DNA of 42,120 nt from a virus (IMGVR_UViG_3300013286_000022:1-42120), one strand, 5' to 3'. Positions 5,158-40,310 are shown, numbered from the stretch's first letter. Notes: generated by a model not told the origin, from the sequence alone. A program made the numbers and translations.

Positions 5158-6936
5158 ATGATTAATGAAGTGTCGCGTCGCTTAGCAGACGCAAAGATGG
5201 TTGTTATCGACGTTGAAACTAATGGCCTAGATTGGCGCAATTGCTTCATTTGCGGTTGGGTATTCACGTTTGGTCCCCGCGAAGAAGACACCTACTATTT
5301 GCCAGTGCGCCACGAGACTGGCCCCAATTACGATCCTGCCAAGGTGCGGGACATGTTTAATTCTCATCAAGATGTCGCTCGTCACTGGGTGGGCCACAAT
5401 CTCGCCTTCGATTTGGCGTTTATCCACAAAGAGTGCGATCCTATCAATGGCACGTTCGAGGATACGATGATCAATGCGTGTCTCATTAACGAGTTCGAAG
5501 AGTCATACAGCTTGGCGGCTTGCGCCGAGAACGTTAATGTACAGAGCAAAAAATCGTCCGAAATCCTGCAACACATCGCCAATACATTTGGTGGCGACGC
5601 TCATAAAAATCGCATGGGCGAGTTCTGGCGGCTCCCAGCAGACGACGACATGGCACATGAATACGCCAGAGGCGACGGCACCACCACTTGGCAATTGTGG
5701 GAAGTGCAACAGCGTCGACTTGAAATGCAAGAGCTTGGCCAAGTACACAAGATCGAGTGCGATCTCATCCCAGTGTTGAATCGCATGACCATGCGCGGTA
5801 TCAAGATCGATGTGTCGTATTTGCATCGGCTGAAGGAGCATTTGGAAAAGGAGCACACCGTTCTAATGAAGGAGATTGGTGGTGACACTAACATTAACTC
5901 CAGTAAGCAGATTGCCCAGTTCTTTGCCGATCGTGGCTACAGCGGGTGGCCCACCACCGAGAAGGGCAATCCGTCCTTTACCGAAGAGTGGTTGTCTACC
6001 AATGAGCTTGGGCAAAAGTTCGTTAACGTGCGCCGCGTGTCGAAGATGCTGTCGTCGTTTGTCGATCCGATCTTGGAGAGACACTTGCACAACGGTCGAG
6101 TGCACCCCCAGTATAACCAGCTCAAGTCCGACGAGTTTGGCACGGTCACGGGGAGACTATCGTCGTCCAGCCCAAACGTCCAAGCGGTGCCAAAGCGCAA
6201 CGCCGACTCAGGTATACCCTTTCGTGCCATCTTTGTGCCAGACGATGGCATGATCTGGGGATCCGCTGACTACAGCCAGTGTGAGCCAAGGCTACTGGCT
6301 CATTATTCTAATTGTAAAGTCCTTGTTGACGGCTATAGTGCGGATCCACCCGTCGACGCCCACACCGCTGTGGCCAATGCGGCAGGAATCGACCGCCAGT
6401 CTGGCAAACGTCTTAATCAGGCACTGCTCACGGGTGCTGGTATCAAGAAGGCCACTCTGATGCTGGGTAAGCCACCCAAGGAGGCCGAGGCGATCGTCAA
6501 GCAATACTTCGCCTCAATGCCAGAGATCAGAACCCTCCAGGAACAAGCCGCAAGCGTTATGAGGGAAAGGGGATACGTGAAGTCGATCTTTGGTCGACGT
6601 GCTCGACTGGAAAAATCGGGCTACGAGTACAAGGCAGTTAACCGCTTATTGCAGTGCAGTAACGCGGACATGATTAAAGTGTCGATGGTGAAGGTAGATG
6701 AGTATTGTATGAGTGTTGGTGGCATCGATATGCTTAATAACGTTCATGACTCTATCGACTTTCAGTATGATCCTGATCGCGTGGACGCTTATCGCGGAGC
6801 TATTGAGATCATGTGCCAATTTCCTCAGGTCAATATACCGATCGTCGTGGATGACGATACTGGTAGCAACTGGGGTGAAGCTTCTTACGGTACTAAGTAT
6901 TACGAAGAGGTGATGGCCAAAAAGGGTCTGAAATGA
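5158..6936 (+). CDS. dpoZ: Family A DNA polymerase with 3'-5' exonuclease (DpoZ candidate)
   Basis: 592 residues. The proofreading domain shows Exo I DVET (D18, E20), Exo II HNLAFD (N81, D85) and Exo III YARGD (Y169, D173), so it should be active. The polymerase domain has motif A DYSQCEPR (D371 to R378), motif B from R413/K417 reading NQALLTGAG instead of the usual NFGxxYG, and motif C VHDS (H530, D531, S532), where most family A enzymes have HDE. Both catalytic Asp are present. There is no 5' nuclease domain. The start has AGGAG at 5147-5151 and follows the structured leader. Context with purZ, mazZ and datZ makes it a candidate DpoZ, the polymerase type of 2-aminoadenine phages. The family A call is firm; the dZTP preference is inferred. 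Confidence 0.93.
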   Translation: MINEVSRRLADAKMVVIDVETNGLDWRNCFICGWVFTFGPREEDTYYLPVRHETGPNYDPAKVRDMFNSHQDVARHWVGHNLAFDLAFIHKECDPINGTFEDTMINACLINEFEESYSLAACAENVNVQSKKSSEILQHIANTFGGDAHKNRMGEFWRLPADDDMAHEYARGDGTTTWQLWEVQQRRLEMQELGQVHKIECDLIPVLNRMTMRGIKIDVSYLHRLKEHLEKEHTVLMKEIGGDTNINSSKQIAQFFADRGYSGWPTTEKGNPSFTEEWLSTNELGQKFVNVRRVSKMLSSFVDPILERHLHNGRVHPQYNQLKSDEFGTVTGRLSSSSPNVQAVPKRNADSGIPFRAIFVPDDGMIWGSADYSQCEPRLLAHYSNCKVLVDGYSADPPVDAHTAVANAAGIDRQSGKRLNQALLTGAGIKKATLMLGKPPKEAEAIVKQYFASMPEIRTLQEQAASVMRERGYVKSIFGRRARLEKSGYEYKAVNRLLQCSNADMIKVSMVKVDEYCMSVGGIDMLNNVHDSIDFQYDPDRVDAYRGAIEIMCQFPQVNIPIVVDDDTGSNWGEASYGTKYYEEVMAKKGLK

Positions 6937-7358
6937 GCATAGAGCTTAGGTATCAAAAGCAAATCGTCGACGATGTTAAATTCTTTAACCGTCGATCATA
7001 TGCGATAAAAATGTCTAATCGCTTCATTGCTGGAATACCAGACCTGCTGATCAAGGTGCCTGACTACGAGATACTGTTTGTAGAGGTGAAATACACCGCT
7101 CTACCCAAGACGTCTAACACCGTGTTAGTCGAAACCACCGCCATTCAGAAAAGAACGCTCAAGGTAATGGCTGGTGCGGGTCTTGCGGTGGCGGTGTGGG
7201 TGTTCGTAGACGTTGGCAAGTCTATTGGAATAGCAAAGGTAGGGTGGGACAGAACATCGATAGACATAGACCCCGCCAAGTTAATTTATAGGCCGAAGGG
7301 TAAAATCTGGCCCATAAAAGAATTACTTACAAACCCCGACGGATACGGCATCTGGTAG
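6933..7358 (+). CDS. VRR-NUC domain nuclease
   Basis: 141 residues with the VRR-NUC (PD-(D/E)XK) core: an N-terminal helix with RYQKQIVDDV, then GIPDLLI (active-site Asp), LFVEVKY (Glu and Lys of the ExK motif) and a later Gln (IQKRTLKVMAGAG). Phage VRR-NUC proteins are structure-specific nucleases or Holliday-junction resolvases acting in replication and recombination. The start overlaps the polymerase stop (ATGA), so the two are co-translated. The gene ends just before the purZ promoter. Confidence 0.85.
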   Translation: MSIELRYQKQIVDDVKFFNRRSYAIKMSNRFIAGIPDLLIKVPDYEILFVEVKYTALPKTSNTVLVETTAIQKRTLKVMAGAGLAVAVWVFVDVGKSIGIAKVGWDRTSIDIDPAKLIYRPKGKIWPIKELLTNPDGYGIW

Positions 7359-7367
7359 CGTCACATC

Positions 7368-7396
7368 TTGACACAAAGACCACGGTGTGGTATACT
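7368..7396 (+). promoter_or_regulatory. Sigma70-like promoter of the purZ operon
   Basis: TTGACA (7368-7373), a 17-base spacer and TATACT (7391-7396) with an extended -10 (TGG before the box). The 13 bases ending in the -35 and the 13 bases around the -10 match the promoter at 3306-3334. A purine-rich ribosome-binding site (AGAGGG) and the purZ ATG at 7423 follow. This gives the Z-nucleotide genes their own strong host-type promoter. Confidence 0.82.
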
Positions 7397-7422
7397 AAAA
7401 CACTAACAGAGGGATACACAAA

Positions 7423-8544
7423 ATGCATAGTGACGGATTTCTGCAGTATGGCAAAGCATCAGTGCTGATCGACGGTCAGTTCGGTTCTACAGGCAAGGGT
7501 CTCGCCGCCGCCTACATTTTCGAAGTGATTAAGGACCAATACGACTGGGAAAAGGTGGTGTGCATCACCAACGCTGCCCCCAATGCTGGCCACACCACGA
7601 TCACGGCAGAAGGTCGCAAGTTCGTAACGTTTCATATGCCCACAATGGGCGTCTTGTCGCCCAACTCGCCGATTTTCCTCAATGCAGGTGCCATCATCGA
7701 CATTGAGATGCTTAAAAAGGAAGTAGCCGATCTTGGCGTAAACCCCAATCGGGTCTTCATCCACCAAAATGCGGCAGTTATCACCCCAGAGGACGCGGAG
7801 TACGAAAAGCAACGTAGCTCCTCACAAACGAAAATCGCATCAACACAAAAAGGAGTAGGACGTGCACTCGCAAGGAAGGTCGGAAGAGACGGGAGGGTCG
7901 TTCGCGATTTTGCTAGCGACCTTGTTAATAGCGGCTTCAATATATCCACTAATGATGCTAATCACTACCTTATGCGAGGTTTTGCCGCGATGGTGGAGAC
8001 ACCACAAGGTATGGGATTATCTCTCAACAACGGTTTCTACCCTCATTGCACATCTCGCGAGGTTTCTGTCTCACAGTCGCTCTCGGATGCTGGTCTGCAC
8101 CCAAGCACTCTTGCTCACACTCTGGCTACGTTTAGGACGTTTCCGATCCGCGTTGGCCACATCTATGACGAAGACGGTCAAATAATCGGTAATTCAGGAC
8201 CAGTATACCCTGATCAAATAGAGCTATCATGGGACTACTTTAGGGGTGTAGAGCCTGAGCGCACCACAGTCACCAAGCGCGTACGTCGCATTTTCTCTTT
8301 TTCGGAGCAACAGTATGCTGAGGCTCTGGTCCGTTTGCGGCCCACATATGTACACATCGGTTTCTGCGACTACTTTAATGACGAGGACGAGTTTCACCGC
8401 TTCATCGACATTTTGGCGCGGGTCGAGGCACAAGTCGGCGTCAGGGTCCATCGGTTTTATGCTTTCGGACCAGCAACCACCGACGTTATTCACGACAATG
8501 AGGTATACTTTAACAAGATGGCACTAGGAAGGTTCTTTAAATGA
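7423..8544 (+). CDS. purZ: PurZ-like 2-aminoadenylosuccinate (dSMP) synthetase
   Basis: 373 residues of the adenylosuccinate synthetase superfamily, shorter than bacterial PurA (about 430). The N-terminal loop reads DGQFGSTGKG (residues 17-26): Ser22 stands where PurA has its catalytic Asp in WGDEGKG. Losing that Asp is a hallmark of phage PurZ, which joins aspartate to dGMP rather than to IMP. Other family blocks are visible: NAGHT (about residues 54-58), STQKGVG (140s, equivalent to PurA GTTGRGIG) and RTFPIRVGH in the C-terminal half. The product is the precursor of 2-aminoadenine deoxynucleotide. It is first in an operon with mazZ and datZ, and its stop overlaps the mazZ start (ATGA). PurA in the strict sense is unlikely because of the Ser and the neighbours. 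Confidence 0.92.
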   Translation: MHSDGFLQYGKASVLIDGQFGSTGKGLAAAYIFEVIKDQYDWEKVVCITNAAPNAGHTTITAEGRKFVTFHMPTMGVLSPNSPIFLNAGAIIDIEMLKKEVADLGVNPNRVFIHQNAAVITPEDAEYEKQRSSSQTKIASTQKGVGRALARKVGRDGRVVRDFASDLVNSGFNISTNDANHYLMRGFAAMVETPQGMGLSLNNGFYPHCTSREVSVSQSLSDAGLHPSTLAHTLATFRTFPIRVGHIYDEDGQIIGNSGPVYPDQIELSWDYFRGVEPERTTVTKRVRRIFSFSEQQYAEALVRLRPTYVHIGFCDYFNDEDEFHRFIDILARVEAQVGVRVHRFYAFGPATTDVIHDNEVYFNKMALGRFFK

Positions 8545-8834
8545 AAACGAGAGAAGAAGTATCAACGTTTGCCACCGCTATGGAGGGCAAGCTACAGAAG
8601 CGCGATGCTTATGGTGGGTGGCGTCACTTGCCGCTTGAGTATCTGCAAGAGAAGCTTGAGTCCGAGTTGCGCGAGTTGTTTATCGCGCTTAAGTACGAGA
8701 GCCGCTCAGAGGTAGCTGGGGAGTGTGTAGACGTGGCCAATTTTGCCATGTTCATCTGGGACATCATGCGGTCCCAGCCCGAAAAACGCGAGGGCATCCT
8801 TACTCGCGGGTCTAAGGAGAAGGCACATGAGTAG
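8541..8834 (+). CDS. mazZ: MazG-like nucleotide pyrophosphatase (MazZ candidate)
   Basis: 97 residues, all-helical, with the MazG metal-binding pattern ExxE...ExxD: E42/E45 within ESELRELF and E61/D64 within ECVDVANF. The length fits small single-domain MazG-like proteins. In characterised 2-aminoadenine phages, MazZ hydrolyses (d)GTP to (d)GMP and so supplies the PurZ substrate; that role is inferred here from the position between purZ and datZ. It starts in an ATGA junction with purZ and overlaps datZ by 8 bases. A general house-cleaning dNTPase is the alternative. Confidence 0.85.
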   Translation: MKTREEVSTFATAMEGKLQKRDAYGGWRHLPLEYLQEKLESELRELFIALKYESRSEVAGECVDVANFAMFIWDIMRSQPEKREGILTRGSKEKAHE

Positions 8835-9426
8835 TCTTACAGCTCCTCGCAACGCGCCGTTTGCCGCTGCATTCAGAGACCTGTCATACGTGCCGCGCTG
8901 GGGCATCCTGCGTAGCATCCGCAAGCAAAATGTCGCTGAGCACTCGTACTATGTGGCACTGTATGCGGATCAACTCGCCGCGCTGATACAGTGGGAGGGC
9001 GACACTGCCGCTCTCCTTCAGTACGCGCTGTTGCACGACATCGATGAGACGATCACGGGAGACATTCCAGGCCCAGTGAAGCGAGCAGCGTTCGACAAAA
9101 CCAAGATGTGGAACAAAATCCGCGATACAATGGCTAGACGTTTCGGGACTATCAACGTGTTTCGCCTTAATAACCCGCTACCAGAAATCAAGGCTATCGT
9201 CGCGGTAGCCGACTCCATCGACGAGATATCATATCTTATCGAAGAGACTGTGCTAGGCAATAAATGGGTAAAGGTGGTGTTGGTGGAGGCCATTCGTCGC
9301 TTTGAGGCTCGGTGGGAGATGCTACCCATCAATGACGAAGAAGACTCTAAAAGTCTCAAGGCCGTTGTGATGGAGATACTCACCACCCACAGGCAGGACC
9401 CTATTCTTCTTAAGGATGTGCTATGA
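8827..9426 (+). CDS. datZ: HD-domain phosphohydrolase (DatZ candidate, dATP triphosphohydrolase)
   Basis: 199 residues from ATG 8827; the frame is open further upstream, but only across mazZ, and this start matches the family N-terminus. It has the YfbR-like HD order RWGIL (R24-L28), NVAEH (H39), LLHD (H70, D71) and VADSIDE (D129), so all metal ligands are present. Aromatic and aliphatic residues after the RW pair, and a Pro (GDIPGPVK, residues 79-84) after the HD motif, occur where DatZ proteins read the adenine base. DatZ removes dATP so that dZTP is used instead. A YfbR-like 5'-nucleotidase is the alternative; the neighbours favour DatZ. Confidence 0.87.
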   Translation: MSSLTAPRNAPFAAAFRDLSYVPRWGILRSIRKQNVAEHSYYVALYADQLAALIQWEGDTAALLQYALLHDIDETITGDIPGPVKRAAFDKTKMWNKIRDTMARRFGTINVFRLNNPLPEIKAIVAVADSIDEISYLIEETVLGNKWVKVVLVEAIRRFEARWEMLPINDEEDSKSLKAVVMEILTTHRQDPILLKDVL

Positions 9427-10775
9427 ATTGGCCGTTAGCTCTTTCACCGTTGCCAGTGCAATCAGAGGCACTTAAACGCTCCAAAGGTAGCGAGGGGTAC
9501 GCTTACTTTCTAGAGCCTGGAATGGGCAAAACCGCCATTATCATGGCCGAATTTAGTAATCTAGCCGCCGCTGGTAAGGTTAAGCTGTTGCTGGTAATAT
9601 GCCCCAACACCCTTCGTGGCAACTGGGCGGCGGAGGCCGAGAAATTCGGGTTTGCGTACAACGTTGCGGTGCACCCAGAGCCACCACCCAAGGTGGGTAT
9701 GTTAATCGTTAACTATGAGCGTCTGGTCACCAAGTCTTACACCGACTTGCTGAAGGTGGTGTCTGCCACTTCTAGTATGGTAGTCTGCGATGAGAGTCAC
9801 AGAATTAAAAACCCAAAGGCCAAATCCACCAAGGCGGCTATCACACTGTTTGACCAAGCAAAGTACAAGCGCGTGATGACGGGTACACCCATGGCCAACA
9901 ACGTGATTGACCTGTGGCCCCAGCTACGGGCGATCGGGCATAACGGATCCCACCGCACACCGTTTACTTGGCGCAACCGCTACGGTATTATGGGTGGTTG
10001 GATGGGCAAGGTGGTTGTAGGTGTGCAACGCGAGGAGGAATTAAAAACCATCATCGACGGGTGCGCATTTCAAGCCAAAAAGGTAGACTGGCTGAAGACC
10101 CTGCCACCCAAAGCATACTACACCATTCAATACGACATGCTTAAGGCTCAGAAGGACGCATACAAGAGCATATATACCGATCGGTTTCTAGAGGTAGACG
10201 ACTCTGAAATCACTGCTAGCATCGTAATCACCGCGCTGATGAAAATGCAACAGATCACGTCTGGCTTCATGATGGACGACGAAGGTAAGGTAGTTTATCT
10301 GGTCGAGCCTTACAATAACCCCAAGATTAACGCAGTTAAGGAGGTGGTGAGTGACATTGACGGAAAAGTTATACTATTTGCTCACTATCGTGAGACGATA
10401 CGGCTTCTTCAGAACTCCAAAATAGGCAAGCATGTTACTATTATCGGCGGCATGAAGCGCGACGAGATTGCCAAGGCTGTGTTCGATTTTAATAACGATG
10501 ACAGTGTGCGATTTCTAATTGCTCAGACCGCCACCGCCAAGGAGGGCATCACCCTTCTTGGTAACATGAATGTGCAATGTAGCACTACGGTGTTTGTGGA
10601 AAATACCTACAGCCTGATCGACCGCACACAGGCCGAAGACCGCAACCACAGACACGGCCAGATGGCCGAGCAAGTGTCTTACTACGATATGGTCGGTAGT
10701 AAGCTGGAGGCCAAGATCATCAAGGCACTTCAGAACAAAAAAGACCTAGTTAAATCCGTGATGGAGGGCGTCTGA
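9423..10775 (+). CDS. SNF2-family DNA helicase/translocase
   Basis: 450 residues. Walker A is EPGMGKT (residues 31-37), motif II is DESH (123-126) followed by RIKN, motif III is TGTP (153-156), and the C-terminal RecA domain ends in the SNF2-type arginine motif (DRTQAEDRNHRHGQ). The length is that of compact phage SNF2 proteins without accessory domains. Such proteins move along double-stranded DNA and are found near phage replication genes; the exact function is unknown. The start overlaps the datZ stop (ATGA), which places it in the Z operon. Confidence 0.88.
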   Translation: MNWPLALSPLPVQSEALKRSKGSEGYAYFLEPGMGKTAIIMAEFSNLAAAGKVKLLLVICPNTLRGNWAAEAEKFGFAYNVAVHPEPPPKVGMLIVNYERLVTKSYTDLLKVVSATSSMVVCDESHRIKNPKAKSTKAAITLFDQAKYKRVMTGTPMANNVIDLWPQLRAIGHNGSHRTPFTWRNRYGIMGGWMGKVVVGVQREEELKTIIDGCAFQAKKVDWLKTLPPKAYYTIQYDMLKAQKDAYKSIYTDRFLEVDDSEITASIVITALMKMQQITSGFMMDDEGKVVYLVEPYNNPKINAVKEVVSDIDGKVILFAHYRETIRLLQNSKIGKHVTIIGGMKRDEIAKAVFDFNNDDSVRFLIAQTATAKEGITLLGNMNVQCSTTVFVENTYSLIDRTQAEDRNHRHGQMAEQVSYYDMVGSKLEAKIIKALQNKKDLVKSVMEGV

Positions 10776-11573: not shown

Positions 11574-11842
11574 CCCCTATGGTTTGCGTTGACTCTTTGT
11601 TTATCATCAAGTCGGTTTTGGACAACATATGCCAAAAGCACGGGGTAACGTATGAGGAGTTAACGTCGCTGTCGCGAAAAGACGGGCTTACCAAAGCCCG
11701 TCGAGAAGCCATTATTACGATGAGAGACGAGTTGAAAATGTCATATCCGTTTATTGCTCTTATGATTAAAAGAGACCATTCTACGGTGCTTCGTATTTAC
11801 GAAAGGGAAAAAGGGCATGACGCTAGAGTCGTTCATCCGTAA
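11570..11842 (+). CDS. Stand-alone DnaA domain IV-like DNA-binding protein
   Basis: 90 residues. The segment from about 40 to 80 (TKARREAIITMRDELKMS, then RDHSTVLRIY) matches the DnaA C-terminal domain, including the signature RDHSTV (R68-V73; DnaA usually RDHTTV) that reads DnaA boxes. The AAA+ part of DnaA is absent, so it cannot load helicase by itself. It could bind DnaA boxes as an origin-recognition factor, regulator or competitor of host DnaA. It starts in an ATGA junction and overlaps the next gene by 26 bases. Confidence 0.75.
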   Translation: MTPMVCVDSLFIIKSVLDNICQKHGVTYEELTSLSRKDGLTKARREAIITMRDELKMSYPFIALMIKRDHSTVLRIYEREKGHDARVVHP

Positions 11843-12302
11843 TACCGTAATTGATATGTGGAAGGGTAACAAAACCGCCCTTCAAATATCCAACTACCTT
11901 CGGGCCAAAGGGTACCACCTATCCCGAAGTGCCATTAGCGGTAGGGTAAAGCGTCTTCAAGACGCTGGGGTGCTTCGTCGAAGGACGATCGCCCCAACCA
12001 CCGTTAGTGAGAGAAAAGCTAGGCCAGCCGTCGAGAAAAAGCCGCCACCGCCACCCGTAATGGAAATTAAACACAACAACCCAGTGTCTCTTCTTGACTT
12101 AAAAAGTGAGCATTGTAGGTACCCATTAGGCAACAGCATGTTTTGTGGAGACCCAATACACAAAATATCATACTGTTCTTGTCACTATAAACTATGCTAT
12201 AATACGATTTTAAATTATAGAGGAATAGCAAATGCTACAGTTAACCCCACCACTGCCGCTAACCACCCCAAAAGGAAAAGCTTTGGCCCATTTCGTTATT
12301 GA
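11817..12302 (+). CDS. GcrA-like transcription regulator
   Basis: 161 residues. The N-terminal helix-turn-helix (about 1-50; ALQISNYLRAKG...SRSAISGRVKRLQ) is followed by a basic/Pro linker and the GcrA C-terminal block SLLDLKSEHCRYPLG, MFCGDP and YCSCHYKLCY (C100, C110, C120, C122, H123). GcrA in Caulobacter and relatives binds sigma70-RNA polymerase and methylated GANTC sites. A phage version could redirect host RNA polymerase to phage promoters. The family is nearly confined to Alphaproteobacteria and their phages, which points to the host. It overlaps the DnaA-like gene. Confidence 0.82.
   Translation: MTLESFIRNTVIDMWKGNKTALQISNYLRAKGYHLSRSAISGRVKRLQDAGVLRRRTIAPTTVSERKARPAVEKKPPPPPVMEIKHNNPVSLLDLKSEHCRYPLGNSMFCGDPIHKISYCSCHYKLCYNTILNYRGIANATVNPTTAANHPKRKSFGPFRY
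12195..12203 (+). promoter_or_regulatory. Extended -10 promoter candidate
   Basis: TGC followed by consensus TATAAT (12198-12203) lies inside the 3' end of the GcrA-like gene. No good -35 box sits at 16-18 bases, so it would depend on the extended -10. It could drive the last + strand gene at 12232. Confidence 0.5.
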
Positions 12303-39911: not shown

Positions 39912-39940
39912 ATTTTACCACACGAGATCGGGGTGCGGAA
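39912..39940 (-). promoter_or_regulatory. Candidate - strand late promoter before the scaffold gene
   Basis: On the - strand the -10 TAAAAT (39912-39917) is preceded by CGTGTGG, so TGG gives an extended -10, as in the + strand promoters. The -35 at 17 bases is poor (TTCCGC, 39935-39940). The sequence CGTGTGGTAAAATGC is nearly repeated at 41764-41779. Confidence 0.5.
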
Positions 39941-40310
39941 TTGTACCCCTAATGTTAACATCGTCAACAATTCGGCAATACGCGTCGTTAATCTTCAACT
40001 GCCACCCGTCGGATGGCCGAAATACTACCCACTGCAGAGGGTCAACGTTTTCACCGTTAAACCACTTGTTGTCGGGGTCGTAAAATGCCGAAGGGCCTTT
40101 CTTAAGCACCAGACCAACTTTTCCCTGCCACTTATCTTCGTCGCGGGTAGCCCCTGGAATCATAATTCCACCGCTAGTGCGCTCTGGGCGAATGTAAATA
40201 CCCACGAGCACCTGATTGTTAAACAGCTTAAAGTCGCTGATATTGCCAACGCTTTCCACAAGATCGATCCGTGGATCCTTCTCATGCTTCATACGCAGTA
40301 AAGATGACAT
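39915..40310 (-). CDS. GroES-like co-chaperonin (131 aa)
   Basis: The core DFKLFNNQVLVGIYIRPERTSGGIMIPGAT, DKWQGKVGLVLKKGP, WVVFRPSDGWQLKINDAYCRIVDD matches the Cpn10 fold, including the mobile-loop position (TSGGIMIP) that contacts GroEL. The N-terminal 25 residues are an extension, and the insert between strands (SAFYDPDNKWFNGENVDPLQ) is longer than in bacterial GroES. It probably pairs with host GroEL to fold the capsid protein, since it is encoded in the head block. Confidence 0.83.
   Translation of the reverse strand: MSSLLRMKHEKDPRIDLVESVGNISDFKLFNNQVLVGIYIRPERTSGGIMIPGATRDEDKWQGKVGLVLKKGPSAFYDPDNKWFNGENVDPLQWVVFRPSDGWQLKINDAYCRIVDDVNIRGTIPHPDLVW

Follow-up and report, generated by a model that had tools for sequence, protein, structure and literature searches.

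The window analysed here is the whole of an IMG/VR virus record of 42,120 bases from an uncultured phage, and its genes between 5158 and 10775 all lie on the + strand (Table 1). A candidate 2-aminoadenine (Z) cassette, purZ-mazZ-datZ, begins 0.5 kb after the end of a polymerase gene, and its genes are joined to each other and to the helicase gene that follows by overlapping stops and starts: an ATGA at 8541 between purZ and mazZ, an overlap of 8 nt between mazZ and datZ, and an ATGA at 9423 between datZ and the helicase gene. The datZ gene was listed as an ORF at 8743-9426, with the ATG at 8827 as its likely start. The promoter upstream of purZ matches the consensus at 11 of 12 positions and is the best of five sites found in 4.5 kb, a length in which 4.1 sites matching at least 9 of 12 positions are expected by chance. 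These observations agree with a preliminary description of this DNA, in which the three genes were coupled behind a promoter of their own. The cassette had also been placed directly after the polymerase gene, which is indeed upstream, with a nuclease-like gene in between.

Table 1. Features of the window discussed in the text.
Feature	Coordinates	Strand	Remarks
Family A DNA polymerase with 3'-5' exonuclease domain, 592 aa	5158-6936	+	PurZ-linked Thr-type lineage
Thr425 codon of the polymerase	6430-6432	+	E. coli Y766 position
Small nuclease-like protein, 141 aa	6933-7358	+	Weak PHROG endonuclease match
Sigma-70-type promoter TTGACA-17-TATACT upstream of purZ	7368-7396	+	TG before second hexamer
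Predicted PurZ (succino-2-amino-deoxyadenylate synthase), 373 aa	7423-8544	+	GQFGSTGKG with Ser22; Asp316 at S-2L Q308 position
Predicted MazZ, MazG-like (d)GTP pyrophosphohydrolase, phiVC8 type (MazZ-2), 97 aa	8541-8834	+	
Predicted DatZ, HD-domain dATP triphosphohydrolase, 199 aa	8827-9426	+	RWGI, Q..A.H, HD, D129; S-2L K116 replaced by Ala
SNF2-type helicase	9423-10775	+	End of coupled run
GcrA-like cell-cycle regulator	11817-12302	+	
GroES-like co-chaperonin, among structural genes	39915-40310	-	

Comparison of the window with a 97% relative (L006) gave dN/dS values of 0.04-0.09 for each gene compared. The proteins are therefore under constraint, and all genes of the cassette are subject to strong purifying selection. 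No close DNA relative of the first 24 kb of the window was found among isolated phages.

The purZ, mazZ and datZ products

The synthetase scored 228.8 bits (E 8e-68) against the NCBIfam PurZ model, below its curated cut-off of 300, matched PHROG synthetase family 1211 with an E of 1e-62, and also matched the solved PurZ structures of phiVC8 and S-2L. The preliminary description had considered that the synthetase might group inside PurA, but a tree that included PurZ0 and E. coli PurA placed it within the PurZ clade (SH-aLRT 97), apart from both, and among PurZ sequences it lies on the side of Ochrobactrum phage vB_OspP_OH (phage OH), not on that of the phiVC8 and S-2L isolates. The site of the PurA residue Asp13 is occupied by Ser22, as it is by serine in 130 of 130 aligned PurZ sequences, and the threonine at the S-2L T273 position is retained. 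Membership of PurA was rejected on the tree and these diagnostic residues, and the identification of the window synthetase as a predicted phage PurZ is well supported. The S-2L Q308 position holds Asp316, neither Gln nor Asn, as in E. coli PurA; aspartate occurs there in 43 of the 130 aligned PurZ, and the site is thus variable within the family. In PurA this aspartate reads the guanine of GTP, and for this reason the phosphate donor of the window enzyme may differ.

The predicted MazZ retains the metal ligands ExxE...ExxD (E35, E38, E50 and D53), while the guanine-site residues I56 and D60 of MazZ-1 are replaced by Asn and Phe (ligands and MazZ-1/MazZ-2 characters as in PMC8342488). Its sequence resembles the MazZ-2 of phiVC8, ZP6 and OH, which assigns the predicted enzyme to the phiVC8 type, MazZ-2.

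The HD protein matched the PHROG dATP triphosphohydrolase with an E of 9e-22 and retains all the metal ligands of S-2L DatZ (H34, H66, D67 and D119 in S-2L numbering) together with the equivalents of R19, W20, I22, Q29, A32, G74, P79 and K81. The W20/I22 pair is what gives S-2L DatZ its specificity for dATP, excluding ribose and 2-amino purines (PMC8065100). The S-2L residue K116, a contact of the gamma-phosphate, is replaced by Ala in the window and by Ala or Ser in close relatives, with lysine present in 66 of 87 aligned DatZ; the strength of the predicted dATPase is uncertain as a result. The earlier statement that each enzyme has its catalytic residues was therefore nearly right, with K116 as the exception. 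The AlphaFold model of the protein (pLDDT 88.7) has S-2L DatZ (6zpa) as its best structural match with a Z of 19.1, effectively tied with YfbR at 18.8, so that fold alone does not separate the two, and in sequence its best PDB match is the nucleotidase YfbR.

A PurZ-linked polymerase with an altered tyrosine position

The polymerase aligns along its length with Klenow and also matches phiVC8 DpoZ; the Klenow fold is seen again in its model (pLDDT 92). Against the NCBIfam DpoZ model it scored 345 bits, below the curated cut-off of 500. When compared with the named features of phiVC8-like DpoZ (PMC8599892), it lacks the fingers (helix-O) insertions 2 and 3 and has Gln421, Thr425 and Asn in place of L455, F459 and G548, while S583 and the long exonuclease E1/E2 region are present. 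A stretch equal in length to insertion 1 (G349-G353) is also present, but ordinary phage PolA such as HTVC023P, R5C and LC04 carry it as well, which makes it non-diagnostic.

Thr425 occupies the position of E. coli Y766, a tyrosine with a presumed role in shaping the active site; phage OH has Ser there. This tyrosine is otherwise strictly conserved, and its replacement by Phe is the only characteristic residue common to both known DpoZ clades (PMC8599892). In a tree built without the helix-O columns, the Thr-type polymerases formed a clade with support of 99, they joined other PurZ-linked polymerases in a lineage with support of 100, and the phiVC8-like DpoZ stood apart, also with support of 100. 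Membership of the window polymerase in the phiVC8-like group (DpoZ-2) was rejected on residues, insertions and tree, and a clade of Thr-type and DpoZ-2 enzymes that excludes other PurZ-linked polymerases was rejected with a p-AU of 0.00016. A single origin of all PurZ-linked polymerases as against canonical ones received support of 7. The window enzyme also falls outside the Wayne-like DpoZ-1 group of PurZ0-phage polymerases, whose own placement is unsure owing to long branches, and does not have the helix-O Phe of that group. The most likely reading is that it belongs to a Z-phage PolA lineage of its own, marked by a change of the conserved tyrosine to Thr, with Ser in OH and with Asn, Phe or Tyr in certain relatives. 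Three PurZ-linked, insertion-free polymerases (L321, L322 and L323) have Phe at the Y766 position (VFGMGE), apparently a further change at this site. In two papers on viral PolA diversity (PMC9069017, PMC6302109) no mention was found of purA, adenylosuccinate, position 766 or diaminopurine.

The association between residue and cassette was examined in three IMG/VR scans in which polymerases, not purZ, were the queries, giving 181 unique polymerases with the window included; whole records were checked for purZ at 26 loci. A nearby purZ was found for 67 of 67 decidable Thr-type polymerases, with 3 more undecided on truncated contigs, as against 6 of 40 decidable Tyr-type polymerases (34 without purZ, 63 undecided), a group that does not represent PolA evenly as a whole, since HTVC023P-like polymerases were the focus of the canonical scan. 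Asn-type polymerases had purZ in three cases and not in one, and three Phe-type polymerases had it. The sole exception among changed residues is an Asn-type polymerase on a 46.5-kb contig without purZ (L324). All changed residues compared with Tyr gave a Fisher p of 1e-21, a value that ignores ancestry, and the tree contains only three supported independent pairs, too few for a phylogenetic test, so that no phylogenetic significance is claimed. Since Thr at this position has essentially one origin, the link to purZ could reflect shared ancestry; it is an association, not proof. The tyrosine change is also not required, because a few purZ phages keep Tyr. The dpoZ label of the preliminary description holds insofar as the window enzyme is a PurZ-linked polymerase, despite its score below the cut-off of the DpoZ model, and fails insofar as it implied a phiVC8-like DpoZ, given the low score, the missing insertions and the changes at Phe459 and Gly548.

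A predicted 2-aminoadenine genome and its alternatives

The earlier interpretation of PurZ, MazZ and DatZ as a Z cassette is well supported by the trees, the diagnostic residues, the order of the genes and the signs of selection. The cassette is real and probably working, and it is likely that this phage has a 2-aminoadenine genome, as predicted from its genes; the preliminary description predicted virion DNA with little or no adenine. By analogy with characterised homologues, MazZ would convert (d)GTP to (d)GMP, PurZ would join dGMP to aspartate to give succino-2-amino-dAMP, host PurB would remove fumarate and host kinases would then yield dZTP, while DatZ would destroy dATP and the adjacent PolA would copy the genome with dZTP in place of dATP. 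Each of these steps is known from S-2L, SH-Ab 15497 and phiVC8.

In simulations of Bst Pol I, wild-type Tyr714, at the Y766-equivalent position, clashes with the amino group of the template guanine in a G-T mismatch, and in the Y714S enzyme Ser714 forms a hydrogen bond with the template guanine NH2 (PMC12756729). From this simulated bond we propose that the small hydroxyl at the Thr425 position may tolerate, or form a hydrogen bond with, the 2-amino group of template Z in the minor groove. This is a hypothesis: guanine in an ordinary G:C pair has that amino group too, and Tyr-type enzymes copy such pairs well. We suggest tentatively, at somewhat short of an even chance, that these enzymes add another class to the Z-selective family A polymerases, next to those of the phiVC8-like and Wayne-like types, without fingers insertions and with Thr (or Ser/Asn) in place of tyrosine, by which the 2-amino group of Z would be tolerated or recognised. 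No single structural cause of Z selectivity was found in phiVC8 DpoZ (PMC8599892), and a Thr/Ser/Asn lineage without insertions offers a natural comparison by which the choice of Z versus A at the polymerase becomes directly testable. If the suggestion is true, nature would have reached Z specificity by a minimal change, one present in many uncultured phages.

It is quite possible, if on the doubtful side, that Z is made without any discrimination by the polymerase, so that DatZ alone excludes adenine and the Thr-type enzyme is an ordinary replicative PolA that travels with the cassette. The phiVC8 features missing from the window enzyme, the purZ phages that keep a Tyr-type polymerase and the precedent of cyanophage S-2L, where adenine is excluded in this way and the PrimPol takes A as well as Z (PMC8065100), all agree with this; however, the Thr-type lineage is distinct, it was never found without purZ at decidable loci, and exclusion of adenine by DatZ only is less comfortable for a DatZ that has lost K116. 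It is improbable that replacement is partial or absent, with genes that serve during infection to increase dGMP and to clear dAMP or dATP, for example in nucleotide salvage, and virion DNA that mostly retains its adenine. The three genes of phage OH were taken as nucleotide salvage (PMC7139368), and the similarity of the HD protein to YfbR and its loss of K116 are in line with that, but the synthetase has Ser22 where PurA has its catalytic Asp and falls among enzymes of demonstrated dGMP use, DatZ retains the W20/I22 pair, by which 2-amino purines are excluded, and the S-2L trio alone sufficed to put Z into E. coli DNA (PMC8342488).

PurZ-type genes are also found outside phage cassettes. The chromosomes of two alphaproteobacterial MAGs carry one with the GQFGSTGKG motif (L340, 8983-10026; L341, 8998-10035) in a common gene order, cmk - purZ-like - RdgB/HAM1-like - rpsA - sppA. 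It is the only PF00709 gene in either genome, the MAGs being possibly incomplete, and the DNA polymerase I of both is Tyr-type. Because of these two bacteria, PurZ sequence alone is not proof of a Z genome. That the window synthetase might likewise function as a PurA and make AMP, as the fold could if a PurZ-type gene is a bacterium's only PurA-family gene, is very improbable, since its gene lies together with mazZ and datZ, conserved sites are changed in the bacterial copies (TSHS for TSRE, TTNTK for TTVTK) and no purB above the curated cut-off was found in these possibly incomplete MAGs.

The alphaproteobacterial host proposed in the preliminary description is plausible, since GcrA is an alphaproteobacterial regulator and the window carries a GcrA-like gene; its structural matches are mixed, with alphaproteobacterial phages among them. 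Such a setting is uncommon, as had been stated, but not new, phage OH with the same cassette being already in GenBank. GcrA acts together with adenine methylation at GANTC, a mark that might be missing from a Z genome, and here the GcrA-like gene sits in a likely Z-DNA phage. GANTC occurs 102 times in the window against about 135 expected, and GATC is over-represented over 1-42120 (192 against about 125).

Comparison with known systems

A single IMG/VR scan confirmed 384 relatives of purZ, which shows that the Z cassette is widely spread among uncultured phages. The PurZ genes of L059, L062, L063 and L071-L073 lie on very large viral contigs of 83-287 kb, and DatZ and MazZ were not found in their fetched flanks. 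Among described systems, the Wayne-like or PurZ0 phages of Arthrobacter and Gordonia share with the window a PolA gene and a synthetase of the PurA family in which Ser occupies the D13 site, but their synthetase belongs to the PurZ0 clade, their polymerase has Phe in helix O, and dUTPase-type and other nucleotide genes replace datZ and mazZ. Cyanophage S-2L has a contiguous purZ-mazZ-datZ and the dATP-specificity residues of DatZ, but differs in its MazZ-1, in having only a PrimPol and no PolA, in keeping K116 and in a PurZ that is 33% identical. In phiVC8 and SH-Ab 15497 (DpoZ-2), purZ-mazZ-datZ is found with a nearby PolA with exonuclease and a long E1/E2 region, and with MazZ-2 in phiVC8; the window polymerase, unlike theirs, is of a separate lineage, without helix-O insertions 2 and 3, Phe459 and Gly548.

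Phage OH (MT028492), the one isolate encountered of the window's lineage, has a description that makes no mention of 2-aminoadenine (PMC7139368). It differs from the window in having Ser where the window polymerase has Thr425 and in additional small genes, located upstream of purZ and between mazZ and datZ, and the two are 36% identical in polymerase and 42% in PurZ. It shares with the window the order polymerase, nuclease, purZ, mazZ, datZ and helicase, with the putative nuclease between polymerase and purZ and the helicase in the same place, as well as MazZ-2, an insertion-free PolA of the same lineage and an alphaproteobacterial host.
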